In this document: positions 5,736 to 50,268 of the stretch, in pieces | Position numbering within the stretch: position 1 is the first letter of the stretch | How the letters are laid out: the number at the start of each line of letters is the position of its first letter | From: Blepharisma japonicum | Taxonomy: Eukaryota; Ciliophora; Heterotrichea; Heterotrichida; Blepharismidae | Length of the DNA stretch: 64,000 nucleotides | Reading direction: 5' to 3' | Assembly (NCBI GenBank): GCA_949751835.1 | Contig: CATKHK010000136.1 | Location: 1-64,000 of the forward strand | Position numbers and translations under genes: made by a program | The notes under the pieces: model-generated | Databases searched by the model: none | What the model saw: only the letters and a program-made list of their open reading frames with translations | Told to the model about the DNA's origin: nothing

Positions 5736-6446
5736 ATGGAAGAAAGAAAAGGCTCAGGAAAAGGAAAAGGAGATGGTGCTTTTGGAGGTGCTCAGCCATC
5801 TCTTAGTGGCCTCGTTCAAATGGGAATCGGTCACAAATCAAAAGAATACGGCAGATGGGGTCTATATTCCGCAAAAGCTGAAATAGTTCTTTATGAATTA
5901 CGCCAAGCTTTATATTGGCAAACAATAGTAGAACTTTTCCTAACATTTTTGTGTTTCCTGATGTTATTGACTGGAAATGGTTTTCAGTTTATTTTCCATT
6001 TCGTTCATGGCATCAGACCCTACTTCGCTTATCTTACAATTCAAACTCTTCCAAAATCCTACAGTATTCTTGAAGGTCTCCCAGAAGATTTAAGACAAGT
6101 CAATCAAGACATTCAGACTAAACTTTTTGATGAGTTTAAATACTGCTCAGGACCGCTTACAAAATATTTTATTGTGTCTATGTGTGCTCTGCTTCTCGAT
6201 ACACTAACATTACTATACGATGTCAAAAAGATGGATGGAGACGAACTTAGTGCGGCCTTTTTCTTATTTGCTGCCTTTATTTATGTTTCTTTTGACTTAT
6301 TTTTACCTTTGTGGTATTACACTCTTAAATTCAGCTTCCCTGAGGATATTTGGGTAAATCTAACTAAGATAGCAAACGGTACTTTTGAAGAAGCGACAGC
6401 TTACGTAAAAAACTCACTAGATCAAATGCAGCAATCTCTCAAATAA
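5736..6446 (+). CDS. Hypothetical multi-pass membrane protein
   Basis: A 236-residue protein ending in TAA. It opens with a Gly/Lys-rich polar segment (MEERKGSGKGKGDGAFGG). Hydrophobic stretches follow at about residues 68-90 (FLTFLCFLMLLTG), 150-165 (YFIVSMCALLLDTLTLL) and 178-205 (AAFFLFAAFIYVSFDLFLPLW), giving three or four membrane spans, and the tail is amphipathic. The arrangement of a helical hairpin pair separated by a polar loop is somewhat like ER-shaping proteins, but I see no reticulon or other diagnostic motif. Function unknown. Confidence 0.7.
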   Translation: MEERKGSGKGKGDGAFGGAQPSLSGLVQMGIGHKSKEYGRWGLYSAKAEIVLYELRQALYWQTIVELFLTFLCFLMLLTGNGFQFIFHFVHGIRPYFAYLTIQTLPKSYSILEGLPEDLRQVNQDIQTKLFDEFKYCSGPLTKYFIVSMCALLLDTLTLLYDVKKMDGDELSAAFFLFAAFIYVSFDLFLPLWYYTLKFSFPEDIWVNLTKIANGTFEEATAYVKNSLDQMQQSLK

Positions 6447-7113
6447 TTATTAAGTGAGAAATATAACTTAAATACTTAATTAATTTAAGTCTTAATTATT
6501 TTTATCATAAGCTAAATAAAAATCTGTTACAGATTTCGTATAAAAATGGGAGCTCCATGATAAAAAAGTAAATTTAAAAATGCGATAGACTAAAATATGT
6601 TTTTGAGAGATGCATTACTAATAATTTAAGACATTAAACGTTTATTATCCATTCTCGTTATTCTTATAATTAAAATTAATTTCAATTGAAAAGTTAAAAT
6701 ATAAACTTTCATACAATTAAATTTCATATTGACTGGTCTTGTATCTAAAAATAATATGATACCATGCGAATCTTGATGCAATTTCTCAACCCAATAATCT
6801 GGACGAATTTTAAGAGGAATCAGCAAAGAATAGAGGCAAGTTGTTGATTATACGCATCTGGATAAGTTTCAGTTTAGGTCTGTTATTCAATATGCAATGT
6901 TTTTAGAAATGATAGATCATTAGCCTTGGCCCAGGGCTAAGTCTTTTTCCCTATGTAATAAGTCGCAAAGCGGATGAATCTACTTCGGAGAGATCTTGTT
7001 TATTGCATATAAATAAGAGACCAGCCCATCAGTTAATTAAGATTAAGACCTGTCTTGTACCTTATCACCATTCATTAGCTATATTTATTTAAGTTAATAA
7101 ATAATAAAAATAA
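6447..7113. other. Intergenic region with a less AT-rich, possibly structured island
   Basis: Mostly AT-rich, but about 6840-7075 is clearly less so. It contains a hairpin with an 8-bp stem (6920-6927 with 6933-6940, one G-T pair, 5-nt loop GGCCC), closely followed by a T5 run at 6943-6947. That could be a small structured RNA or simply conserved promoter DNA. I could not match it to tRNA, 5S, U1-U6, SRP or a C/D snoRNA. Confidence 0.3.
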
Positions 7114-7512
7114 ATGAAATACTCAAGACGATTTAGTAAAAAAAAGAAAACCATAAGAAAGAGAAAAGTGTATGTACCCTATTATCAAGCATCCATAAAA
7201 GAAATTATGCATGATCTTAAAATAATTGATATAAAAAACAACCAATTGATGCCAGTAATTACCAAAAAAGAACCCATAAAGCAAACTCCAAAAAAAAGTA
7301 TAATTACTGATGAAAATATTGCTATAGAAAGTTTAGTTATTTTAACAGAATCAATTGAAAAGGTTGAAGAAACTAAACTTGAGCCTCAAATAAGCAACCA
7401 ATATCAAACACAGCAATATTACAACTTCCAGCCATTCTGGCAATATTATCCATATTTTCTGTACCAGAACTATGCAAACAACATTGGACAATTTGGATGA
7501 TATTATAATTAA
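7114..7512 (+). CDS. Small basic protein with Tyr/Gln/Asn-rich tail
   Basis: A 132-residue protein if the UGA at 7498-7500 is Trp; the frame ends at TAA 7510-7512, so the C-terminus is GQFGWYYN. The N-terminus is strongly basic (RRFSKKKKTIRKRK), which suggests nucleic-acid binding or a nuclear signal. The middle is Lys/Ile-rich and the last 45 residues are enriched in Tyr, Gln, Asn and Phe (QYQTQQYYNFQPFWQYYPYF), a low-complexity, prion-like composition. No family recognised. Confidence 0.6.
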
Positions 7513-7741
7513 ATAGGTAAAATATTGTATAAAAAACTGAATCTTTAAAAATACGATCTTAAATTAAATATTACTAATTTTCTCGAATATTCAGAAATTT
7601 GGAATTTTTTTTAAAAATAATTAAGAGATAAATTCTAAAAATAATAGCAAATGCCTTAATACTTTGCCAAGAGTAATTTTGCTTAATATATAGAAATATA
7701 AAATAAACGCAATAGTAAATAAATAGAGAAACAATAATATA

Positions 7742-10378
7742 ATGTTATCCAGATACTTTGGGAGAAAATCTTTAGCCTTCGTTATATTTTTAGCCTTAGT
7801 TACCTCTTTATTTTGGATAGGCAATATATTGGCTTTTGATATTGAAGCTGAGCAAGAAGAAAACTTGGTACCAACAACGATTACTACATCTACTAATGAT
7901 TCAAAAGAACTCCAAGCTACAGAAGATCAAAATTCTCCAAGTATTGCTCCTGAATCAGCTTATGATGAAGCCGATCTATTATCTGATCTTCTCCCAAGAT
8001 CTGGCTCAAATTACAGCATATCTTCAATTAAATCTACTGAATTACAGTCTGAGATAAAAATTTCTGGAGAAGAAATTGCTTGTGTGCCTTCTATTTTTGG
8101 CTATACCAAAGAGCAAGCTGAAAATCGCTATAAATACTTGGATAGGGCTTTCTCTTGTGGATTTGAAAGTGACAATGCGGTGATTATTGAAGATAACAAA
8201 CTTACTATTAATTGTCCAAGCTACGCATCTCCTGTAAACTGGGCGTTAGGAAATGCCCCTAGGGATGAATTGTTTGGTAATGTCAGACTTGTGCCAAGGT
8301 GGAATATTTACAAAGACCGTGAAGATATCGGGGATGCTGAATTTGGATATGTGAAATGTGGCACTGGCATGAAGCAAGCTTTTTTGCAAAATAAGTTTTC
8401 TAGAACTACCTCTATCAAAGCGCAATCTACAAGAGAAATCATCTCTGAAAACCTCAATCTAAAAGAAAAGCCTAAACCTTTAACTGTGATGGTTCTTTAT
8501 TTGGATTCTGTATCCAGAAAGCACTTTTATAGAGCCTTGAACAAAACAGCTGCGTTCTTTAACAGCTCAATTTCCACAGGAGCTTTTTCAGATGATTACG
8601 TGATTTATGATTTTTTAATTAACAATGCCCACGGAGAAAATACAGCACCAAACGTAACTCCTTTAACTTATGGGCAATCATTACCTGATATCCAAAAGTT
8701 GACCAAAGGCTGGTCTGTAAGAAGAGCCCAAGATAAAGCAAAATATGAAGAACTGCAAAAAAGAGCTATTTGGAAATATTATGAAAAAATGGGATTCGTC
8801 ACTATGTTTGGCTTTGAAACCAAAGGAGATTATTTCGCAGAGATAACTGGGAGAAAAATCCTTTGTGATCACGTAGCCACAAGTTTTTGGCGAGGATCCA
8901 CTGATATTATGGGATATAACGAGTACTCTGAAAAACAAAGATGCATTGGCATTTATAATTCTCATCATTATATGTTCAAATATGCCTCAGAATATGTGAA
9001 TAATTATAAAGGCCATAACAAATTCAGCTACATGCACATTTTGGCTGGGCATGAAGGAACAGGATCAGTTATAAAGACAGTTGATGAGGATTTATTGAAA
9101 TTTGTAAAACAAATGCTGGAATTTCATAGAGATAATAATGAAGATATTGCATTTATTGTAGGTGCAGATCATGGCTTGCATGTAGGGCCTTGAGATAAAG
9201 TTGAAGAAGGGCTAATGGAAAATTTATTGCCTTTTTCTTTTTTAATTGCTAATAAAGAACTGATTGCAAAGCTGGGTTCGGAAACCCATGAAGTTTTGCA
9301 ACACAACACAAATAGGTTAGTAGGAAAATTAGACTGGTATCTCACTTTAAAGCATTTAGCAACAGCGCCTTATGGGAATTTGGACATAAATTCCAAGGTT
9401 TATCAGGAATGGAAAAAATTGACAAATTCTGAAAATGCTATTTCCTTGCTTATGGAAAAGGTTAAAGATAGTAGGACATGCGAAGATATCCGCATAAATT
9501 TGTATTGGTGTACCTGCTTGAAATATGAAGAATTTAATAGATTAAGTTCAGAAGAAGAATCAGCCATTGTACAACGTATAGCAGAAGCAGGGATTGAGGC
9601 AATTAATCGAAAAATTTCAAAAGACAAAGCTCATGAGTACTGCATGACTGTCTCTCTTGCTGAGATTATCAAAACTGATCATGAAATTACTGACGCCAAA
9701 GTAAAACATTACAAAGTAGATATAAAAATAAACGAACACCCTGATTTTATTTTTAGAGTTATTGCTCAAGTTATGCCAAGCTCAGAGTTAATGAAGTATA
9801 AAAAGCAAGAACTCGAAAATCAAATCTATCCAACCGCTTCTTTAGATTCCTCTCAGGGAAGAATTGAATTGCAGGTACAAAATGTAGTGAGAGTAGACAA
9901 CACAAATGAAATTTGTATGGAAATTGGAAATAATGTTAAAGGAAAAGACAATTATTGCGTATGCAAAGGACTAAAGGATTTCAATATACCCAAATTCCCT
10001 AATGGAAAAGTTAAAGTGCTATTAGAAAATTTTAAGAAGAAATTAAATATTCATGTTTCAGAAGTGTCTCAAAGTTGCAAGGAAACTTGCAAAAACTATG
10101 GAAAGGTTTGTGAAGAGTGAGGACTATCAGTAGTGAATAATTTTGATCTTATGAGCGAATCTTGAAGAGAGATAGGCTCAAATAGCTATTTCGTAACGAT
10201 GGATGATAAGACCTTATTTTTCAAAGATTTAAAGATCTCTGAGAAGATTTCTGGAGATCTTCCAGGACTAGTAAAAAATGAAACGGAATATAAATTTGTC
10301 GAAGGAGATTGGAATAATTTGAGTTGCAATAGTCGGTCTGAACACATAAGAGCGTTTTGCCCTTGCTCAAGGTTTTAA
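7742..10378 (+). CDS. DUF229-type sulfatase-like membrane protein
   Basis: Reading UGA as Trp (9191-9193, 10118-10120, 10163-10165) gives one 878-residue frame ending in TAA. An N-terminal hydrophobic segment (about 11-30, LAFVIFLALVTSLFWIGNIL) acts as signal anchor, followed by an acidic low-complexity stretch. The core matches the DUF229 branch of the alkaline-phosphatase/sulfatase superfamily: VMVLYLDSVSRKHFYRAL (about 250-267), YEKMGFVTMFGFE, and IAFIVGADHGLHVGPW (about 470-485) with the metal-binding Asp-His. The Trp in GPWDKVEEG is the first UGA. About a dozen Cys in the C-terminal third suggest a disulphide-rich luminal domain. Substrate unknown. It converges on the LRR gene with only 36 nt between stops. 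Confidence 0.85.
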
Positions 10379-24593: not shown

Positions 24594-27032
24594 TTAAAGT
24601 TCCATCGATTCTTCTGATTCCTCGTACTCTGAATTATGAGGAGAGCTCAGATAACCTTTAAAGAAGTTTCCTTCCATCGGTTTCAGATTAGGAAGATAAA
24701 TTTCTGTATCTCCAATTGTCTCTTCCTCTTTTGGATCTTCTTTTATATCTTCTGATATATCAGGATTGATTTGAGGGGTCAAGTTAAATGCTGCAGAGTC
24801 TGGCTCTGCCTTTTCTTCATGCATGCTATAAGATCTTTCTAGCGTTTTTCCTGATTTTATTTTGGTTTCGTGCTGCTGTTGGCCACTTTGGTATGTAGAT
24901 AGTCGGTCAAGCAGCGACATTCTGAACTTTTTCTTCCTTGTAGGCTTTATATCATAAGAAGGAGAGGCATCTTCCTCCTCATATTTATCGCTGTCTTCAC
25001 TGTCCATATATATCATTGTGAATTTAGGTTCTGCTTTTCTTTCAAAGCCAATATCTGCCTGCATTTCTATTGCTGAATTTGGGGGGCTGATGAAAGATGT
25101 GGTTGAGTGAGATTGGCTTTGGCTATATTTCTCAATAAAACCTTCGATTTTTGGGTATATATGAGGATCATCTGGAAATATCTTTACGATTGGCTGAGCG
25201 ATACCATGAACATTGATGGCTTTGTGGCTCCTGTTGACCAGCTTCATCTTTGGAACGCGATGGTAGTTAGGCTCAAAGTCATCTTCAGGTGTTAATTTTT
25301 TAGTCTCTGGTGCTCCTCGTTTGTCAAGCCACTTTTTCTTGGTTTCCTCTTTATCTAGGTTCAGTAGGATTTTTTTGCATTTTATAGCAACATGACCTAG
25401 TTCTTTGCAGATATAGCACTTTACAAGCAGAGTTGAAAAATCACCATCCTCACATTTTTTAGATAAAAGCTCAGTTTTCTCTTTAGCCTCAGGAAATTTT
25501 ACAAGAAGCTGGTTCATATTGATTCTGGACAAACTCAGCAAGTCTGCAAAATCAAGACACTTTGCAGATGCACATCTTGGCTTTTCTGTGAAAAAAGCAA
25601 TTTCCCCAAAATACTCATCAGGCCCTAATTCTTTATAAGTGGATTTGGTAGAATGATGAAAAATATCAATTTTTCCATTCTGAATAAAATACATTTTTGT
25701 ACTCATTTCGCCTTCTTCAATCACCGTATCTCCTGGTGCATAAGTTTCACCCTCCAGCGCTCTTGTCAATTGTGAGATAAAATGAGTATCATATTGTTCA
25801 AATATTGGGCATAGTTTTATTACAATTCCATGAATATGAGCATAAATTTCATCTCTTAGCGGTTCTGATAACAGCGTCAAAATCTGTTTTTCATCAAGAT
25901 TGCTTTTCTTCTTGTTTTCCCAGACATACTCAAGATATCTTCTAACTCTAAACTGCAAATCGTGAGGCAAATCTTTTTTTCTCATATATCGATTTACAGC
26001 GACGACTTGCTCTCTGTATGCATTCTCAACAGCATTTTGTTTGCTTACAAGTGAGCCGATGCTTCCTACGGTATATGCAAATACTCCACATGCAACAATC
26101 ATTGCAAACATTGCGTAAATTTTTTCTGGGATTGTTTTTGGAACGATATCGCCATATCCTACTGTTGTCATTGTGGTGAAGGCTCAGTATAAAGAGGTAA
26201 TATATTGGTCGAAAGGACTTGCGTTTTCGATTTTGGCGACTGTTACTCATGTGGTTGGATAATAACTAGTATCGAGGTCACCTAAGAAAAACCATCAGCA
26301 AGCTGTTCAGTGAGCTATAAAGAATACAACAGAAAGCAGGCGTAAAAATAAAAAAATAGTTGCAATTACATTACTTGCTACATAATCTTCGATTTTTATT
26401 AAAATTCTTTTAATTTTGGCGACTCTTAGTAGCTTGAGAATTCTCAGAAACCTGAACACCTTGACAAGTCTTAAAAATTGGTTTGAATTGTAGACGTTAG
26501 TTTTGTGCGAGTCTTGCGAGTCCCCATTTTCAAATGGTCCAGTTATAAATCAAGTCAGTGGAACGCTTGCAACTAAATCCAGGATAAACCAAGATTTAAA
26601 ATAATTTACAAAGATTTTTTTGCGGTTCATTTGCAGAGACCCCTTAGAATAAAACCCAGTATTGAAACAAATAAAAATGTCAAAAATGAAACATAAATTA
26701 ATACAGAATTCCAAGTAAGTCCATCATCCAGATATTGCTACATTAAAGCAAAGCCTATATGGAACTGATACTGCATAGTAAACTATGAAAAGCATAGTTA
26801 ATATGTCTCAGAACAGTTTCCACGAGGATTCTGGAGTAAAAGGTCCACAAAATCGGATACTTGGCTTCCCATCCTTAGCGATAGGCGCATTCGGCAAAAA
26901 TGCTTCTTTTTTTATCGTTTTTAAATGATGAAGGGATTTATTTTCTTCCGCTTTTGGGTCTCCTACAGGACCTTGAGATAATCCTAATTGGATATTTGTT
27001 CAGCTTGATACTTTGAGGCCAGAAGTTTCCAT
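24594..27032 (-). CDS. Voltage-gated K+ channel with cyclic-nucleotide-binding domain and CCHC knuckle
   Basis: With about eight UGA codons as Trp, a single 812-residue frame ends in TAA. Order: cytosolic N-terminus with SWKLFWDILTMLFIVYYA (S1), S2-S3, an S4 with Arg/Lys every third residue (FLRLVKVFRFLRILKLLR), S5 with AHWTACWWF, the pore LYWAFTTMTTVGYGD (filter 289-295) and S6. A C-linker and CNBD follow (about 410-515) with FGEIAFFTEKPRCASA, which keeps the ligand-contacting Glu and Arg486. This is the EAG/HCN-like class of ciliate channels. After the CNBD a CX2CX4HX4C zinc knuckle (539-552) precedes a long acidic, phosphorylatable tail. The pore-helix Trp and the S5 Trp pair use UGA. An in-frame ATG further upstream (27191) is less likely as start. 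Confidence 0.93.
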
Positions 27033-27272
27033 TATGATTACTTTTTTTAAACTTTGTGTAAATAAAAAATTGTGCTCATAATATGAGAGTTTTATTTTCC
27101 ATAAAGTAAAAAATATTATTATTGGCTGCTTTATTGATTTAAAAGATCCAAAGACGAAATTTTGATAACGTAATACTGAATGGAACTGCAATTTTACTTA
27201 TTGAAGAAAATTTAAGAATAGACAGAAATAAAGAGTATCAATGAATGTGTAGATAAGGGTCTTTAGAAAATA

Positions 27273-27479
27273 TTAAGACTGCTTCTTTTCTTCTTCTGGA
27301 TCGTAGTTTGGATCGCCTTTGTCAGCTACTTCTATAGCTTCGCTTTCATTATAAGTTCCCCAACCACCATGTCCACCTTTCTTAGGGTTTGGATCAACAC
27401 CCTGATTAGAATGTCGATCAAGCCTTGCATCCTTGTCCTTTTTGCCTTCCACTGATCTCTTATGATCTTCTCTATCCAT
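27273..27479 (-). CDS. Microprotein with SERBP1/PDCD4-type ribosome-binding-like motif
   Basis: A 68-residue, highly polar protein ending in TAA. It contains LDRHSNQG, PKKGGHGGWGTYNE and DPNYDPEEE. The order Leu-Asp-Arg-x-Ser ... KKGGxGG-WGT ... DPNYD closely resembles the N-terminal segment of PDCD4-type MA3 proteins and the RHSG...NWGT segment of HABP4/SERBP1/Stm1 proteins, which contact the 40S ribosome or mRNA. The rest of those proteins is absent. That suggests a stand-alone ribosome- or RNA-binding peptide; this is inference. A decayed copy lies at about 30900-31006 as part of the segmental repeat. Confidence 0.7.
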   Translation of the reverse strand: MDREDHKRSVEGKKDKDARLDRHSNQGVDPNPKKGGHGGWGTYNESEAIEVADKGDPNYDPEEEKKQS

Positions 27480-27612
27480 ATTTTATTATCATTTACGTGT
27501 GAGTGTAAATACTTGAGGTTCAATTTAAACAAATTGTATCTTAAAGCGAATAAGAACTTAAGCATCATAAATCTATTATTTATTTTAAAAATATTGTGAT
27601 ACTAGCTAATAT

Positions 27613-29238
27613 TTACATGTTTTTTAATTTACTCAGTCCAACTTTTAACGTTGAAATGGTTTCTTTAATGAACTCTCCTTCTTTTTCTTTGAAAAAATAG
27701 CTATTATGATCCAAGCTTTCATTCCTTTTAAACTTTAGACTTGGCTCAGTACTGAAACTAGTAAGCGATTTTCTTCCATAAACTGTAATTGCTTTTTTAT
27801 ATGATTCAGATGAAAACAATGGCAATTTGATCTCTAAAGTTTTAGCTATAGGTCGAGCTTCAGTCTTATTCGCAAGAATAAAACTTGAATTCAATTGATT
27901 TGTCTTTGGCTTTAATGCCGGAAATGAGATATGAGCAATAGTTTTGTTTATCTCTGGCATAATATCAAAACTAAAATCCCGTTTAAATTTTATATCACTA
28001 TTTTTGTTTGAGACTAGGCTCTTTTCTGTATTTAAATCAAATGTTGATTCAGTTTTATGAGGTTTTGGTTTCAAAGGAGACTGTTTTTTCGGTTTAGCAT
28101 AGAAATTTGTAAACTGTAAATAGCAATCTTCGCAAACTTTTACTTCTTGAAAGGGTCATAAAGGGTCCCTTTTTATTTCGTCATATTTTGCATTGGTTAA
28201 CGCAGGATTCAGCCTTTTCAGCACAATTGGTACAAGATCACATGCATCCTCAGGGCCATCGTTATTTACTAAGCTGCGCTCTGCAATATTTTGGCCAGGT
28301 GGATCTTTTCCAGTATCTGAATACTTAAGCACTAATTTTAGTAAGATTTTGTACATATATTCACGTCTAACCAGATTATCGCATCCTACACACAACTCCC
28401 TATTTTTTCTTAGTTCACTAAATTTACATGTGCTCTTTATTTTCTTCTCATTCGCCAGATTTGCAATTGTTAATATAAGTTCATGAGAAGCTTTTTTATT
28501 TTCCTTTTTTTGCTTAGTCAGATCCAATACTTTTAGAGAGCTGCAAAATTGGAATCATACTAAATCATCACAGTCTTGCTTAAAAAACAAAGTCATTCTT
28601 GTGACTGTCACGTTTCCTCCTGTTACTGCTTTTATGTGATCAACAATCCCAAGGCAGATTTTTTGGATTTCTTCTACAAGCCAAGGCGATGATAAAGAGT
28701 CAATCTTGCTATTGTGCTCTAATCCTTCATAAGTAACTAATTTATCATAAAAGTCAACTTTTGGGTCATCAATGCTGTGCAAATTTGTCCTTCTTTCAAG
28801 TAAGCAAAATTGTGAGCTCCAAATAACCTTTATTAAGGAGTTTTGCCCATTTTTTGGATCGACTCACTTTTGCAAAATCCCACTCAGAGGTTTATCACAA
28901 TTGTGAATGAAATCATTAAATGACTCTGGATTGAAAAAGTCTACAGTTGCAATATTAGCTTTGTCTTTTTTATTATCACTGAATCCAAGAAAGGTAGCGA
29001 TAATTTTGCTTTTCTCATTCATAAATTCTTGGAAAATAAATTTATGGTTCACTCTTGTTTTGGATTTCCTTAACAGTTCTCCGGATTCTGTAGAAAAATA
29101 TCAAAAGAAAGGTTTAGCATATCGATAAATAACAGTTTCTGGCAGCAATACATTGGGACAGCATAACCCTGTGTTTTCGTTTTGCTTTCATAAATGAAAA
29201 AGTAGCCATTCTGTATATCCAGCTGCTCCTAATCTCAT
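27613..29238 (-). CDS. Unknown CxxC-containing protein (intact member of a local repeat family)
   Basis: With UGA as Trp at five places (for example FHLWKQ, FFWYFS, LQKWVD, DLVWFQ, PLWPFQ) the frame is 541 residues, ATG at 29238 directly after an in-frame TAA, and ends in TAA. No named domain. Landmarks are FFWYFSTESGELL near the N-terminus, TRMTLFFKQDCDDLVWFQFCSSLKVLD in the middle, a possible zinc site pairing CVGCDNL with VCEDCY, and a basic Ser-rich tail. Its CxxC and the segment after an N-terminal 'P-x-x-(I/V)' block resemble the protein at 54108-56321, so the two may be distant paralogues. Two broken copies lie downstream (29595-29985 and 31150-32392). Confidence 0.75.
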
Positions 29239-29594
29239 TTAAATGCCTGTGATTTAAATTAAATATTAAGCTGATCAGAGAATCATTAATTCTCAGAAAT
29301 TAAAAATAAGCAATAAAACAGCATATATGCCAAAATTATTATGGATTTACAGAGTAATAAACCTTAAAGAAATCCATAATTAACAAAATTTTTATAGAAA
29401 AATAAATAAGCCTATTAAAATTATACTAGAATTTTCAAACAGAAAATTAATCTTTAATCAAGAATTTATTTATAGTGATATTAAGAATTGGCAATACATT
29501 AATTATTTTATTCTTATAATTATGAGAATTATCAACAGCCCATTTAATAAAAGAATTTAAGTAATAATATCAAAGCTAAATCTGACATATTTCT
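29239..29594. repeat. Segmental-repeat spacer (copy 1) with remnant of a Rab 3' end
   Basis: About 29258-29545 is similar to 29990-30245 and 32400-32695: shared stretches include AGCTGATCAGAGAATCATTAA and the ending TTATAATTATGAGA. In the other two copies that ending leads straight into the last codons of a Rab gene; here it continues for only about 15 nt (ATTATCAACAG) and then jumps to other sequence. The Rab of this unit has therefore been deleted, leaving its extreme 3' tail. Confidence 0.75.
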
Positions 29595-29985
29595 TTATTA
29601 AGGAATTTTGCCCATTTTTAAGATCGATTCACTTTTGCAAAATCCCAGTCAGAGGCTTATAACAGTTGTGAATGAAGTAATTAAATGACTCTGGATTGAA
29701 AATGTCTACAATTGCAATATTAGCATTGACTTTTTTATTATGATGATTTTGCTTTTCTCATTCATAAATTCTTGGAAAATAAATTTATGGTTCATTTACT
29801 CTTGTTTTGGGTTTCCTTAACAATACTCCTGATTCTGTAGAAAAATATCAAAAGAAAGGCTTAGTATATCGATAAATGACAGTTTCAGGCAGCAATACAT
29901 TGGAACAGCACAATCCTGTGTTTTCGTTTTACTTTCATGAATGAAAATGTAACCATTTTGTAAATCCAGCTTCTCTTAATCTCAT
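29595..29985 (-). pseudogene. 5' fragment of the CxxC protein gene (copy 2)
   Basis: Closely similar to 28826-29238, that is codons 1 to about 138 of the intact gene. The initiator-equivalent CAT is at 29983-29985. A deletion of about 22 nt relative to the intact copy (around 29735-29745) and further small differences break the frame, and the rest of the gene is missing. It is followed by the spacer repeat and the first Rab. Confidence 0.8.
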
Positions 29986-29989
29986 TTAA

Positions 29990-30245
29990 ATGGCAGATAA
30001 TTTAAATTAAATGTATAAGCTGATCAGAGAATCATTAATTCTCAGAATTTAAGAGCAATAAATAGCATATATGCTAAAATTATTATTATTTTATAGATTG
30101 GCAAACAATAAAGGAATCCATAACTTACAAAATTTTTTTAAGGAAAATAAATAAAATAGCATTTTCAAACTAAAAATTATTTTTAATCATTTATAGTGAT
30201 ATTAATTGGTGAGACATTAATTTTTTATTCTTTATAATTATGAGA
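29990..30245. repeat. Segmental-repeat spacer (copy 2)
   Basis: Similar to 29258-29545 and 32400-32695, separating the CxxC gene copy from the Rab gene in each unit. Small indels distinguish the three copies. Confidence 0.75.
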
Positions 30246-30246
30246 C

Positions 30247-30843
30247 TTAGCAACGTCCTTTCTTTTTTTTTGGTTGAGGCTTAATTACAAATGAATCATT
30301 GCTCTTAACTGAGCTTGCTAAATTAGATTTGTCTTTTAAAATTTTTTCAGCTATTGCTTGAAATGGTTTGGCCACATCAATATCATCTTTCGCTGATGTT
30401 TCTAAATAAATCATGTTATGTTTCTTAGCAAAATCCTCAGCTTCTTCTCTTGAAATTGCTCTCTGTTCAACCAAATCAATTTTATTACCCACAAGAATTT
30501 TATTAGCTGAAGCTGTGCATTGATCTGTGAAATCTTTGATCCACATTTTCAGCTCTTTGAATGTTTCTCTGTTTGCGACATCAAATACAATAATTGCCCC
30601 ATCAGCAATTCTAATATAAATAGAGTTGATTGGTCTGTATTTTTGATTGCCTGCTGTGTCCAATAGATTGAGAGCTACATTTTTGCCATTTACTTGTATG
30701 ACTTTTGTGATCTCATGCAAACCGAAAGGCATAACGAAAGATCCAGTATTAAATCTCCAATAAAGACTGGTTTTTCCTACTGTTGAAGATCCAAGAATAA
30801 CTATCTTTATTTTGTGATCAATTGAATCTTGATTTGGCTGCAT
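30247..30843 (-). CDS. Rab-like small GTPase with altered switch regions
   Basis: A 198-residue Ras-superfamily protein ending in TAA. The P-loop GSSTVGKTS (18-26), NKID and ETSAK are intact, so guanine-nucleotide binding is expected. Two key parts differ from normal Rabs: the switch II motif is LDTAGN (Asn66) where its sister at 32694 has WDTAGQ, so the catalytic Gln is missing, and the switch I region is shortened (FVMPFGLHEITK) and lacks an obvious effector Thr. It ends GRC with one prenylatable Cys instead of two. Most of the rest matches the sister gene. The frame is fully open, so it is maintained, perhaps as a GTP-locked or non-hydrolysing form. Part of the segmental repeat. Confidence 0.9.
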   Translation of the reverse strand: MQPNQDSIDHKIKIVILGSSTVGKTSLYWRFNTGSFVMPFGLHEITKVIQVNGKNVALNLLDTAGNQKYRPINSIYIRIADGAIIVFDVANRETFKELKMWIKDFTDQCTASANKILVGNKIDLVEQRAISREEAEDFAKKHNMIYLETSAKDDIDVAKPFQAIAEKILKDKSNLASSVKSNDSFVIKPQPKKKKGRC

Positions 30844-30899
30844 TTTTTATATTATTAGACACCTAATGCAATCTATTTAAATTTATATGACTTGGTGAC

Positions 30900-31006
30900 T
30901 TTTGATCCTATTTAGGGCTTGGATCAATCCTATGTAGAATGTTGATCAATCTTTGCACAATTGTCTTTTTGGCCTTCTAAAATCTCTTATGATCTTTTCT
31001 ATCCAT
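30900..31006 (-). pseudogene. Remnant of the SERBP1/PDCD4-motif microprotein gene
   Basis: Similar to about 27373-27479, including the ATG-equivalent CAT at 31004-31006 and the flanking TTTATTATTAATT and upstream DNA (to about 31080). Frame-breaking changes and stops within the aligned part, and loss of the region encoding the GGWGT and DPNYD motifs, show it is no longer coding. Confidence 0.75.
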
Positions 31007-31149
31007 ATTTATTATTAATTATGTGTGAGTATAAATACTTGAGGTCCAATTTGAACAAATTGAATCTTAAAGTTCAAAAAGAACTTAGCCAATACTAATA
31101 TAATGAATATATTGTTTATTCGAGTAATATTATGATACTAGCTAATATT

Positions 31150-32392
31150 TATATATTTTTTAATTTACTCAGTTCAACTTTTAGCGTTGAAATGGTGTCT
31201 TTAATGAACTCCCCATTTTTAACTTTAGAAAAATAGCTATTATTCAAGCTTTCATTCCTCGTATACTTTAATATTGATTCAGTGCTGAAGTCAGTAAACA
31301 ACTTTCTTCCAAAACTGTAATCTTTTTATATGATTCAGATGAAAACTCTAAAGTTTTCGCTTATAGGTTGAGCCTTAGTCTTATTATTAAGAGCAGAACT
31401 TGTATTTAATTGATTTTTCTTTGACTTTAACACTGGGAAAGAGATATAAGGTATATATTTGTTAATCTCTAGCATAATATCTAATTAAAATTTCCGTTTA
31501 AATTTAATATCACTATTTTTGTTAAGAGTTGGCTTTTTTCTGTATTCAAATCAAATGCTGATTCAGTTTTGTGAGGTTTTAGTCTCAGAGGAGACTGCTT
31601 TTAAGTTTTGAATAAAAATTTGTAAACTGTAAATAGCAATCTTACTTCTTGAAAAAAGGTAAAGAATCGTTTTATATTTCACCATATTTTGCATTTGTTA
31701 ACGCAGGACCTACAATTGGCACAAGATCATTTGCATCTCAAGGCCATAGTTATTTTGCTAAACTGCGCTCTGCAATATTTTGGCCAGATGGATCTTTTCC
31801 AGCATCTGAATATTTAAACACTAATTTTAGTAATATATTTGCATCTAACAATATAATCGCATCCTATGCACAACACCCGATTTTTCTCAGTTCACTAAAT
31901 TTTAATGTGCTCTTTATTTTTTTATTAACCAAATTTGTGATTATTAATATAAATTCATGAGAAACTTTTTTTTTTTTTTTGTTGCTTGGTCGATCCAACA
32001 TTTTAGAGACTTGCAAAATTAGAATCATATTAAATCATCACAGTCTTGTTTAAAAAATAAAGTCATTCTTGTGACTGTCACGCTTCCTCCTGCTACTGCT
32101 TTATGTGATCAACAATCCCAAGGCAGATTTTTTGATTTCTTCTACAAGCCAAGAGTCAATTTTGCTGTCATACTCCAAAACTTTATAAGTAACTAATTTA
32201 TCATAAGAGTTAACTTTGGGTCATAATGCTATACAAATTTGTCCTTCTTTCGAGTATGTAGAAAAATATCAAAAAAAAGGCTTAGCATAGCAAAAAATAA
32301 CAGTTTCTGGCAGCAATACATAGAACAGCATAACCCTGTGTTTTCATTTTGTTTTCATAGCCATTTTAATATCTGGCTGCTCCTAGTCTCAT
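31150..32392 (-). pseudogene. Decayed copy of the CxxC protein gene (copy 3)
   Basis: Aligns along most of 27613-29238 in the same order, from the stop-equivalent near 31150 to the initiator CAT at 32390-32392, but is about 380 nt shorter. It has many small deletions, loses a large part of the N-terminal third (after about 32250) and contains several UAA/UAG codons and frameshifts. A poly-T run of about 16 near 31965 marks one lesion. No full-length frame remains; an open frame on the opposite strand at 31649-31960 is a shadow. Confidence 0.85.
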
Positions 32393-32399
32393 TTAAATG

Positions 32400-32693
32400 G
32401 CCGAAGATTTAAATTAAATGTATAAGCTGATCAGAGAATCATTAATTCTTAGAAATTAAAACTCAAGCAATAAACAGCATATATATATGGCAATATGCCA
32501 AAAATTATTATTATTTTATAGAGTGATAAACTCTAACGATATCCATAACTTCCAAAATGTTTTTAAAAGAAAATGATTAAGCCTATGAGAATTAAGCCAA
32601 GATAACATTTTGCAAACTAAAATTAATCTTAGTCAAGAGATTTATTAAGAATTGCTGAGACATTAATTTTTTTATTCTTTATAATTATGAGAA
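32400..32693. repeat. Segmental-repeat spacer (copy 3)
   Basis: Similar to 29258-29545 and 29990-30245 and leads into the second Rab in the same way. Confidence 0.75.
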
Positions 32694-33302
32694 TTAGCAA
32701 CATCCTTTCTTTTTTTTTTGTTGAGGCTTAATCATAAGCGGATCATTGCACTTAACTGAGCTTGCTAAACTAGCTTTGTCTTCTAAAATTTTTTCGGCTA
32801 TCGTTTGAAATGATTTGGTCACATCAATATCATCTTTCGCTGACGTTTCTAAATAAACCATGTTGTGCTTCTTAGCAAAATCAGCAGCCTCTTTTCTTGA
32901 AACTGTTCTTTGGTCAACCAAATCAATTTTATTTCCCACAAGAATTTTCTTTGCAGAAGGTTCGCAGTGATCTGTGAATTCTTTGATCCACATTTCCAGC
33001 TCTTCAAATGTTTCTCTACTTGTTACATCAAATACAATAATTGCCCCGCCAGCTTGTCTAATATAAAGATAGTTGATTGATCTGTACCTCTCTTGGCCTG
33101 CTGTGTCCCATACATTGAGAGATACATTTTTGTCATTTATTTGCATGATTTTCGTGATGTCAGACAAACCTTTGGTAGAAGTTCTATTTAAAATGAAAGA
33201 TCCATCATGAAATCTCCACATAAGGCTGCTCTTTCCTACTGTTGAAGATCCAAGAATAACTATCTTTACTTTGTGAGCAATTGATTCTTGATTTGGCTGC
33301 AT
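32694..33302 (-). CDS. Rab-like small GTPase (canonical catalytic residues)
   Basis: A 202-residue protein ending in TAA, start ATG at 33302. It has P-loop GSSTVGKSS (18-26), WDTAGQERY (65-73, catalytic Gln70), VGNKIDL, ETSAK and a double-Cys end (KKKKGCC) for two geranylgeranyl groups. The segment before strand 2 (LNRTSTKGLSDITK) replaces the usual Thr-Ile-Gly switch I sequence, so the effector set cannot be guessed. It is the better-preserved sister of the GTPase at 30247 and should act in vesicle traffic. Confidence 0.93.
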   Translation of the reverse strand: MQPNQESIAHKVKIVILGSSTVGKSSLMWRFHDGSFILNRTSTKGLSDITKIMQINDKNVSLNVWDTAGQERYRSINYLYIRQAGGAIIVFDVTSRETFEELEMWIKEFTDHCEPSAKKILVGNKIDLVDQRTVSRKEAADFAKKHNMVYLETSAKDDIDVTKSFQTIAEKILEDKASLASSVKCNDPLMIKPQQKKKKGCC

Positions 33303-33748
33303 TTTTATATTATTAGACACTATTTAAATTTATATGACTTGATGACCTTAGAGCCTATCTAATCTTTTGAATAAATGAATTTAACATGCATATTCTAAAG
33401 ACCTCTAATTTATTTTTTTTCCTAGTAATCAGGCTGATTTTGGAAACTCCAACTTTATATATTTAACCTATTATATCTTTTTCATTGGCAAAAGCTTCTT
33501 ATAAAGTTCTTTTGCTTTAATTTGAGTTGAATGCAACGATCCTTATATTATATTTTCTAAATCAATATGCAAATATACAATAATCAGATAATTTGCTTAG
33601 GAAAAAAAAATTTTTATGATTTATAGTCTGGGATAATTTTTAAGAGCTCCTTTACAGCAAGATCAAGTTATAAGTATATTTAATTATTGATTATCTCAAT
33701 CTCTTGATTATTATAATTTTATTTAAAATATCTTAAAACAATTAATAT
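33303..33748. other. AT-rich intergenic region
   Basis: About 445 nt upstream of the second Rab and downstream of the RING gene. The first 50 nt resemble the region upstream of the first Rab (repeat edge). Otherwise no feature seen. Confidence 0.5.
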
Positions 33749-34684
33749 TTATAAAAACTTCTGAGTGCAAATTGGACAATTCCTTTCTAAGGTTTTTATC
33801 ATCCACATTTTTAAGCACTCAATATGGATAATGTGCCCGCATTTTAGTTTTGTTGACTCTTCCATAACAATTAAGCTCCAACATATGCAGCATTTATCAT
33901 CCTCGCTCTCATTTAAATCATCCTCTATTATTGCCTTATATTCGCAGTCAAAAGCTGCGACAGATATCTTGTACTTGATAAGCTTTGTTAATTTGATCAA
34001 AAAACACATTAGAAAATAACAACCATAAACATGGCATATTGGGCAGAACCAGTGGTATCCAACAACAGGCACAAAAATAAGAAATTCAAGACTTTTCATA
34101 AATTCTTTAAACGTCTCCAAAAGCAAAACTTTGCAATTTGAAATATTTCCAAATTTGATTTGATAAAGCGTCGTTAAGTTCATCTGAAAAATAATAAAAG
34201 ACTCTATAAAAATTATATTTGATACTTCGGATCCTTCAGAAAGCAGATATTTGATACCCCAAATTATATAAATACTGATAACACTGAAAATGAAAACAAA
34301 TATTCCTAAATTTTTTAGAAGATTGCAAACAAAAAGGGCCTTGCAAAATTCTGATATTACATTCATATAATATAAATACATGGATATAGAATATCATATA
34401 AGTATTGACGTATAGGAGAAAGGTTCTCTAAATGATAAGGTAACTAATATGAGTATTTTTTCAGACCACATAAGATTGTGCTCTTCTTCAAATAGTGGCT
34501 TCATCAAAAATCTCTTTAGGCAATAGGAAGCAGTGTTCTTCATCGCTATATATAGAAAATATTCCGAGACCAGCAAAGGAATTATAAAAATATTTCCAAA
34601 ATAACTAACCAAGGAAAGTTCCAGAGGATATATAGAAAACCAACACAAAGCAAAAAGAGGTTGGATAAGGTTAGATGATGTCAT
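33749..34684 (-). CDS. Multi-pass membrane RING-H2 ubiquitin ligase
   Basis: With the UGA at 34391-34393 as Trp, one frame of 311 residues ends in TAA. The first 230 residues hold several hydrophobic segments (for example FALCWFSIYPLELSLVSYF and LGIFVFIFSVISIYIIW). At the C-terminus (about 265-306) a C3H2C3 RING reads CCICWSLIVMEESTKLKCGH, then IIHIECL and CPIC. An N-terminal membrane bundle with a C-terminal cytosolic RING-H2 is the layout of Hrd1/AMFR-type ER-associated degradation ligases, but no diagnostic membrane motif proves that. Divergent from the transporter gene by 64 nt. Confidence 0.82.
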
Positions 34685-48304: not shown

Positions 48305-49217
48305 CTAAATCCATTGATTTTCCTCTGATTGCGTAATAGTTAACTTTGCCTTTGAAATAATATGCGATGCCACGCCATCCAGCATCCTTCTATTTTTATT
48401 AACTAATTCCTCGAAATGGGCTAAATCATTTCCCCTAATTGCACCTATCAACTCATTTACAAATCCATATTCTGGCTTACTTTCAAATTCAGGATCACTA
48501 TTTATATATCTATGCAACGCATTTTCAGCTCCTATAGCATCCTCATTTGCGAGGAATAACAGTGCGGCCTTAAAAAAGCAAGCCCTTGCTGAATAGGCAT
48601 GAGATGCTTTGCTCATATATTTATCTCCAACAGTTTCAAAGATCTAGATAAATCTTACTTGTATTGCCCTTAAAATATCCTCAGTTTCATTTGAATGTAA
48701 TATTTTAAGCTCAGCACATTTTAGTTCACAGCTGCAGCCCGAACTTTCATCATTCACAGAGTAAAATAGTTCAGCAGCCTGTATATAGCTATCTGCAGCT
48801 TGCTTAAATTCTTTGCTCTCCTCATAAAGCTCAGCAATTTGCCTTTTTAGACTTGCAGCTCTATCTATTTTTGGGGTATTTAAACATATATCTGCTGCTT
48901 GGTTATAATATTTTATAGCATCTAATACACTCACATTTTTGATTACATTTCCTGCATCTATATAATAAAATGCAGCTTCTTCAGGCAGACATTGAGCGCA
49001 TTTTATAAATTCATTTGCAGAGGCAACATCTAAATGGTCTTTTACAATCTCCTCCTATTTTATAGCATCCAGCTGCTATTTTATAAAGCTCAGCGGCTTC
49101 TATGCCTCTTCCCACTTTACTTGAAAACATTTTACTAAACACTCCTGGCCGAAGCAGCTGATCGGCTTGGCTGCTTGCTTCTTGGGCTCGACGGATATAA
49201 TTAGAGCTGCCAGACAT
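48305..49217 (-). CDS. Alpha-SNAP-like protein, paralogue 1 (two introns)
   Basis: Exons 49217-49046, 49029-48659 and 48643-48305 give 293 residues ending in TAG. Removing a 16-nt and a 15-nt intron restores a frame aligned along its length with paralogue 2. TPR-like helical repeats match alpha/gamma-SNAP: YIRRAQEASSQAD, AAELYKIAAGCYKIGGDY, AIKYYNQAADICL, AASLKRQIAELYEE, KQAADSYIQAAELF, YSARACFFKAALLFLANED. SNAPs recruit the NSF ATPase to SNARE complexes for disassembly after membrane fusion. The C-terminus (LTITQSEENQWI) lacks the Leu-Leu ending typical of alpha-SNAP, so NSF activation may differ. ATG chosen at 49217 rather than the TTG just upstream. Confidence 0.9.
48644..48658 (-). other. 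15-nt spliceosomal intron
   Basis: GTAAGATTTATCTAG on the minus strand, phase 0 and containing an in-frame TAG. Same position as the second intron of paralogue 2. Confidence 0.92.
49030..49045 (-). other. 16-nt spliceosomal intron
   Basis: GTAAAAGACCATTTAG on the minus strand. Retention shifts frame. Same position as the 15-nt intron of paralogue 2. A at position 11. Confidence 0.9.
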
Positions 49218-49350: not shown

Positions 49351-50268
49351 TTATATGAAATCGTTTTCTTCCGCTTTCAACATTGTTGATTTCACCTTTA
49401 ATAGCACATGAGTTTTCCATCTATCTAAAGGTGTAATTTTATTAAACTGTGCTGCAACTACTTCAAAATCGGTTTGCTCTCCTGATCGGATTGCTGCAAG
49501 CAAATCCCTTACGAATCTGCATTCTCTTGAAGTCTCAAAGCTCGGATCTCTGTTTGAGTACATATTCAGATTGTTTTCAGCTCCAACTGTGTCATCATTT
49601 GCTAAGAATAGCAGTGCTGCTTTAAAATAGCAGTCTTTTGCTGAAAATCTTGTTAAATTATTCATCAAATACCTTTGTCCTACTAATTCGAAAATCTATA
49701 TACAATCTACCTTGATGGCTTTTAATATGGTTTCACTATCTAAAGAGTCCAATGTGCTTAATTCAGCTGCCTTCAAATGGCATGAATTTGCAGTCCCATC
49801 ACTGTTATCTAATTCAAAGAGTTCAGCAGCTTGTGAATAATTTTCTACTGCAAGGCCCAGCATTTCATCTGTTTCATAAATTTCAGCGATCTGCTTTCGT
49901 AGCCGAGCAGCCTGGCTGATTCTACTACTATTGACTAGAATCTCAACAGCTCTGTTGTAATGAGTGACTGCATCAGCTGAATTAACTTTTCTCACAACAT
50001 TTCCAGCCTCTGAATAGTAATTTGCAGCTTCATCAGGGTTACACTCAGCACATTTACAAAACGCGCGAGCTGAGGATATGTCTAAATTAAAATTACAGTC
50101 TTTTCCTAGTCGATAATAATTTGCAGCTTGCTTGTACAGCTCGGAGGCTTCTTCAAGTCGAGCATCGCGATTCGAAAATATTCTACCAAATACTCCTGGC
50201 TTGCATTTTTTCTCTGCTTGGTTGAAAGCTTCTTGTGCTCGCCTTATATAATTTGAGTCTTCAACCAT
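49351..50268 (-). CDS. Alpha-SNAP-like protein, paralogue 2 (two introns)
   Basis: Exons 50268-50097, 50081-49711 and 49695-49351 (172, 371 and 345 nt; the first two lengths are identical in paralogue 1) give 295 residues ending in TAA. Signature segments: YIRRAQEAFNQAEKK, ASELYKQAANYYRLGKDY, AVTHYNRAVEIL, AARLRKQIAEIYET and FSAKDCYFKAALLFLANDD. The first intron is 15 nt and has no stop in the reading frame, so retained RNA would add five residues (CNFNL in place of Y at the join). Function as for paralogue 1, SNARE disassembly with NSF. The two genes lie in tandem, 133 nt apart, and probably arose by duplication after the introns existed. Confidence 0.9.
49696..49710 (-). other. 15-nt spliceosomal intron
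   Basis: GTAGATTGTATATAG on the minus strand, phase 0 and containing an in-frame TAG. Joins AIK to IFELVGQRY. Confidence 0.92.
50082..50096 (-). other. 15-nt spliceosomal intron without stop in frame
   Basis: GTAATTTTAATTTAG on the minus strand, phase 1. It would be missed by frame inspection alone; recognised because paralogue 1 has its intron at the same codon (GGD/Y versus GKD/Y). A at position 10. Confidence 0.8.

Follow-up and report, generated by a model that had tools for sequence, protein, structure and literature searches.

How does a small group of adjacent genes come to stand on one chromosome in several states, from intact to disintegrating? We address this question for a block of genes in the heterotrich ciliate Blepharisma japonicum (assembly GCA_949751835.1; 45.2 Mb, 224 contigs), in which a microprotein gene (M), a gene for a protein with CxxC motifs (X), a spacer (S) and a gene for a Rab GTPase (R) make up a repeating unit with approximately 80% DNA identity between copies. 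The block lies within the first 64,000 bases, here called the window, of the 74,483 bp contig CATKHK010000136.1 (C136). The reading that we favour, at a probability of roughly 80%, is a local tandem duplication within a region that had itself been duplicated much earlier, the other copy of which is found on contig C43.

The repeated block

A self-BLAST of positions 26501–34500 yields four off-diagonal blocks (77.6–81.9% identity over 477–1435 aligned positions, E values from 1e-99 to 0), which pair 27382–28802 with 30912–32256, 28828–29536 with 29593–30254, 29089–29540 with 32257–32705 and 29836–30914 with 32257–33361. The copies are arranged head to tail in the same orientation, all genes of the block are on the minus strand and the unit is present in three states. 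The initial annotation had described a repeated block in three states of graded decay, the repeats of which should appear in a dot plot or self-alignment. The repeat signal is present, and the decay is borne out by the self-BLAST together with the counts of indels and nonsense codons given below. The features of the block are as follows.

27276–27479, minus strand: M1, intact 68-residue microprotein resembling a stretch of PDCD4; open with TGA read as Trp.
27613–29238, minus strand: X1, intact 541-residue CxxC protein, by sequence a DC4 homologue; open in genetic code 4.
29239–29540, minus strand: S1, spacer, with the last bases of a Rab including the stop codon at about 29524–29540; from alignments.
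29541–29592, no strand: junction filler of 52 nt between S1 and X2; no similarity above that of shuffled sequence.
29593–29985, minus strand: X2, pseudogene, 5' fragment of X; frame broken.
29986–30246, minus strand: S2, spacer; 86% identity to S3.
30247–30843, minus strand: R2, Rab-like, frame open, key residues lost; Pfam Ras, E = 1.3e-45.
30905–31006, minus strand: M3, remnant comprising the N-terminal part of M, truncated at the tandem junction around 30905–30914; from self-BLAST and frame breaks.
31152–32392, minus strand: X3, pseudogene of X with a 0.3 kb internal deletion; from indels, nonsense codons and the codon-position pattern.
32393–32693, minus strand: S3, spacer; from the spacer alignment.
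32694–33302, minus strand: R3, Rab, frame open, canonical switch and C-terminal residues; Pfam Ras, E = 6.1e-54.
33303–33361, minus strand: stretch upstream of R3 that closes the repeated unit on the right; from the end of the fourth self-BLAST pair.

The spacers, which had been noted as clearly repeated, share 85.8% (S2–S3), 82.0% (S1–S2) and 80.4% (S1–S3) identity. The 52 nt filler was compared with Rab, X and the surrounding sequence, and its matches were no better than those of shuffled sequence; it was therefore rejected as a remnant of either gene.

Open frames were judged with TGA as a Trp codon. In translated alignments of the window with the paralogous region on C43, TGA is aligned with Trp in 45 of 67 cases, TAA with a stop in 17 of 31 and TAG with a stop in five of 12. 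A 16 nt GT–AG intron lies inside a protein kinase gene on C43 (309058–309073). Both a UGA codon for Trp and introns of 15–16 nt are described for Blepharisma stoltei in excerpts of PMC9942806, and these Blepharisma-like heterotrich traits are both found here. We infer that the assembly is macronuclear. The telomere repeat CCCTAACA, a pattern given in the same excerpts, occurs neither in the window nor in eight sampled contig-end stretches.

A repeat of this kind could in principle arise in the assembly, if haplotypes or reads had been wrongly placed in tandem. Divergence across the whole blocks is 14–22%, which makes such a haplotype-in-tandem error unlikely; further, the copies carry private indels and their breakpoints differ from unit to unit. 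An artefact was rejected on the divergence, and we regard it as highly improbable.

An older paralogous region and the order of the duplications

A BLASTN comparison of the window with C43:261501–361500 shows that the window is collinear with C43:277–354k, with 16 anchors in one order. The search gave 22 rows, of which six were set aside (five extra copies within the block and a second alpha-SNAP copy). C43 carries M, X and the Rab once each (M at 304779–304982, X at 307188–308804 and a Rab ending at 316938), interrupted by six predicted genes. The order there begins with M and two genes that match no Pfam family, followed by X, a protein kinase (by Pfam), two large membrane-protein genes (one matching Pfam Anoctamin, the other judged anoctamin-like on inspection), a PX-domain gene (by Pfam) and the Rab. 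A genome search with X DNA returned five matches, which belong to the copies in the window and to the gene on C43, and the M protein was found in two places. Rabs form a large family: of 346 candidates in the search, 150 matches were scored, and the gene on C43 ranked third, behind R3 and R2. The tally of one microprotein, one CxxC gene and two Rabs that had been drawn up for the block is thus correct locally, but the genome holds a further intact set on C43.

Since C43 holds the three genes singly with six genes between them, the compact order M–X–Rab is best read as a product of gene loss in the window. The alternative is that genes were gained on C43 and not lost in the window, which may also be the case. 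On the loss reading, the six intervening genes would have been removed from the window and M, X and Rab would have become neighbours. Later, a segment that begins within M and ends a little way upstream of Rab came to be present twice in tandem, presumably by template switching or unequal exchange that needed little homology.

The relative ages of the two steps follow from synonymous divergence. Between the window and C43, dS is 0.84 for M, 1.14–1.17 for the Rabs and 1.59–2.13 for three other genes, and X1 is saturated (seven paralogous comparisons in total, including the saturated one). Between R2 and R3, dS is 0.215 (dN 0.155). The tandem step is therefore younger than the regional duplication.

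The breakpoints of the tandem step can be placed within M, near 27380, on the left and just upstream of Rab on the right; they join near 30905–30914, with only a few similar bases. Because the left breakpoint sits inside M, the truncation of M3 most likely dates from the formation of the tandem duplication. The initial annotation had taken this microprotein remnant as a product of decay. Its frame has indeed decayed (both of its two indels are frame-breaking and there are two nonsense codons in 32), but its shortness is most likely original.

The fragment X2 could have arisen by a further tandem duplication of 0.71 kb or as the deletion remnant of a third full unit. The first route comprises two events, a unit duplication and then a 0.71 kb duplication of the X 5' part, the spacer and the Rab end; it requires the fewest events and accounts for blocks 28828–29536 and 29593–30254 being contiguous copies. 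It predicts, however, that S3 should be the odd spacer, and S3 is odd at 15 sites, as is S2, compared with 26 for S1; we consider this route about as probable as all others combined. The second route begins with three full units, from which a deletion of an estimated 2.2 kb would have removed the first Rab, the second microprotein and most of X2, with unit 3 decaying. Of the three spacers, S2 and S3 are the most alike, as would be expected if units 2 and 3 were sisters. Against this route stand one additional event, a spacer test that reaches only p = 0.12 and a filler without recognizable Rab or X sequence; it falls a little short of even odds. A triplication in which unit 1 then lost its Rab, as the annotation had it, is possible and agrees with the weak lean of the spacers, but it is not required, because a unit duplication followed by the 0.71 kb duplication gives an identical map.

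The fate of the copies

By sequence comparison, X is homologous to DC4, a docking protein of the outer dynein arm. X1 matches the chain named distal DC4 (9e78_5K; E = 3.8e-29, X1 residues 16–240) and TbDC65 (9e5c_7c; E = 7.4e-27, X1 residues 7–239). In excerpts of PMC7617938 and PMC11971395, dDC4 is a docking-complex subunit that touches an outer-arm dynein heavy chain, with orthologues mentioned in several flagellate or motile-ciliate species. The N-terminal 240 or so residues of X1 align with the trypanosomatid DC4 proteins; the remainder, including the CxxC motifs, falls outside the match.

The copies of X differ in constraint. Changes on the X1 branch are distributed over the codon positions as 7:12:24 (p = 0.005, tested on nearly identical earlier counts). 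In X3 the distribution is 55:45:41, with 47 sites unresolved, and does not depart from even (p = 0.36, also tested on nearly identical earlier counts). With exact gene bounds, which were used for X2, X3 and M3 alike, 19 of the 26 indels in X3 are frame-breaking (20 if the 0.3 kb deletion is placed otherwise) and there are five nonsense codons; in X2 both of the two indels break the frame and one codon in 128 is a nonsense codon. When aligned with X1, X3 shows 22 deletions and four insertions of 1–2 nt, and X2 shows one deletion and one 4 nt insertion. Neither has an insertion of 15–16 nt, so that the idea of X2 and X3 as genes with tiny introns is unsupported. X3 is decaying neutrally, free of coding constraint. 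The assignments made from the initial reading, of an intact microprotein and CxxC gene in unit 1, a 5' fragment in unit 2 and a pseudogene in unit 3, all stand.

M1 shares 85% amino-acid identity with its C43 copy, at a dN/dS of 0.10. No Pfam family was matched by M1 at E values up to 0.1. Residues 16–64 show a weak match to residues 96–148 of PDCD4 (8xxl_CD; E = 3.5e-4), in the N-terminal segment of PDCD4 that binds the 40S ribosome; unlike PDCD4, M1 is a 68-residue protein that consists of that segment only.

R2 and R3 both match Pfam Ras, as Rab GTPases do, and the Rab11A chains are the best among the best 60 of 157 solved relatives of R3. The residues that define a cycling Rab are the switch-I Thr, the switch-II Gln and the C-terminal Cys pair. 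R3 keeps all of these along with the Ras domain. In R2, neither the switch-I Thr nor the first C-terminal Cys is present, and with the latter the double-Cys end is gone; R3 and all ten other Rabs of the genome have both residues. The switch-II Gln, which R3 and nine of the ten possess, is also absent from R2. The altered residues correspond to R3 positions 43, 70 and 201. Two intact Rabs had been counted in the block: both frames are open and both are recognizable as Ras-family genes, but R2 has lost its key residues. X1, M1 and R3 are most likely the working copies.

R2 carries an in-frame 12 nt deletion in switch I and no frame-breaking indel, where the rate seen in X3 would predict 9.65 (P = 6e-5). 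With 19 rather than 20 X3 indels, the expectation calculated by hand is approximately 9.2 (P of about 1e-4). For much of its history, the frame of R2 seems to have been maintained by selection. R2 may be an atypical or failing Rab, and both an altered role and late decay would fit. In outline, X retains one constrained copy in the window as X3 decays, and R2 has kept its frame yet lost residues on which a working Rab switch depends.

The open frame of R2 is also what would be expected if some of the remnants had been retained because they serve a separate purpose; R2, for instance, might act as a switch-dead Rab in competition for partners. The R2 branch, however, has a dN/dS near 0.9 (dN 0.110, dS 0.124; R3, dN 0.045, dS 0.091), these being rough values because the outgroup dS exceeds 1 and some third positions are lost among the unresolved sites, of which X3 has 47, and the frames of X2 and X3 are broken, with no third-position bias. 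We consider retention for such a use unlikely; the remnants need no special function.

Several observations weigh against parts of the favoured reading. The excess of departures in R2 at columns conserved in the ten other Rabs (14 of 47, compared with seven of 47 in R3) has a p value of 0.14, and the polarized changes between R2 and R3 (19 versus 8, with 28 unresolved) are borderline at p = 0.052; the roughness of the branch values counts on the same side. Part of the R2–R3 difference may be ancestral, because another Rab of the genome (L010; C14:550616–551215) has KYRPIN, like R2, and lacks the switch-II Gln (DTAGTE). The X 5' part offers too few quartet sites (3:2:2) to order the duplications, and the odd sites of the three spacers (S1:S2:S3 of 26:15:15, p = 0.12) do not significantly favour any order. 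The possible gene gain on C43 belongs with these points.

Wider duplication and comparison with known systems

The pairing of the window with C43 is accompanied by others. Three of seven arbitrary segments of 8–10 kb each share three or four collinear anchors with a single other contig (C10 with C3, C30 with C18 and C100 with C2, from loci L033, L034 and L036, at 67–81% identity). As for the remaining four, the C25 segment has two short matches each on C65 and C71, that on C70 has scattered matches, that on C1 short ones only and that on C50 matches only itself. Separately from this count, C43:261–271k has one strong anchor less than 14 kb from the start of C130, the rest being family matches. 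The collinear pairs are compatible with an ancient whole-genome duplication followed by extensive gene loss, or with numerous segmental duplications. We tentatively entertain the former, at slightly less than an even chance: the window and C43 would be a surviving pair from an ancient whole-genome duplication in a heterotrich, in which gene loss made the block that was later duplicated in tandem. If true genome-wide, the paralogous regions would mark such a duplication in a heterotrich. Among the titles and abstract openings returned by a literature search, no claim of a whole-genome duplication in Blepharisma was found.

A whole-genome duplication in Paramecium tetraurelia is reported to have been described by Aury in 2006. 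The regions there resemble the present ones in being collinear paralogues with alternating gene loss. Here the pattern was observed in the focal pair and in three of seven segments; genome-wide coverage and a common age would be expected of a whole-genome duplication.

The graded decay of the block had been called unusual. To place it in context, the predicted genes of 240 kb were compared with the same sequence, rows that were antisense, overlapping frames or possible exons being set aside by eye. One other clear decayed tandem fragment was found in these 240 kb outside the block: in L036 (C100:50001–60000), a gene-end copy of the open reading frame at 6278–7816 lies at approximately 9526–9983 (464 nt, 93% identity over 465 positions, with a 1 nt deletion). 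In addition, C16:340–360k has a series of matches to one 0.9 kb stretch of sampled locus L035, resembling a tandem array. An alpha-SNAP-like tandem pair (Pfam SNAP) lies in the window at 48308–49217 and 49354–50268, with a single copy at C43:347889–348803. The left copy was considered as a decayed gene and dropped; its frame change fits a candidate GT–AG intron of 16 nt, which is 15 nt in the other copies, and the pair therefore lends no support to decay being common.

With a second decayed fragment in 240 kb and a precedent in Tetrahymena, where excerpts of PMC2691746 place on record a tandem array of P450 genes (CYP5005) with a pseudogene, the claim of unusual decay is not established by the sequence sampled. 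This kind of event is already known and the process is an ordinary one. What the block provides is an outgroup-rooted decay series at one ciliate locus, with copies that are intact, open but failing, fragmented and neutral; the decay is easy to read because an older single-copy version persists elsewhere in the genome. The CYP5005 cluster, as far as the excerpts describe it, is likewise a set of head-to-tail copies in a ciliate, one of which has decayed. In B. japonicum, by comparison, a unit of three genes has been copied, and the older single-copy paralogous region remains as an outgroup.

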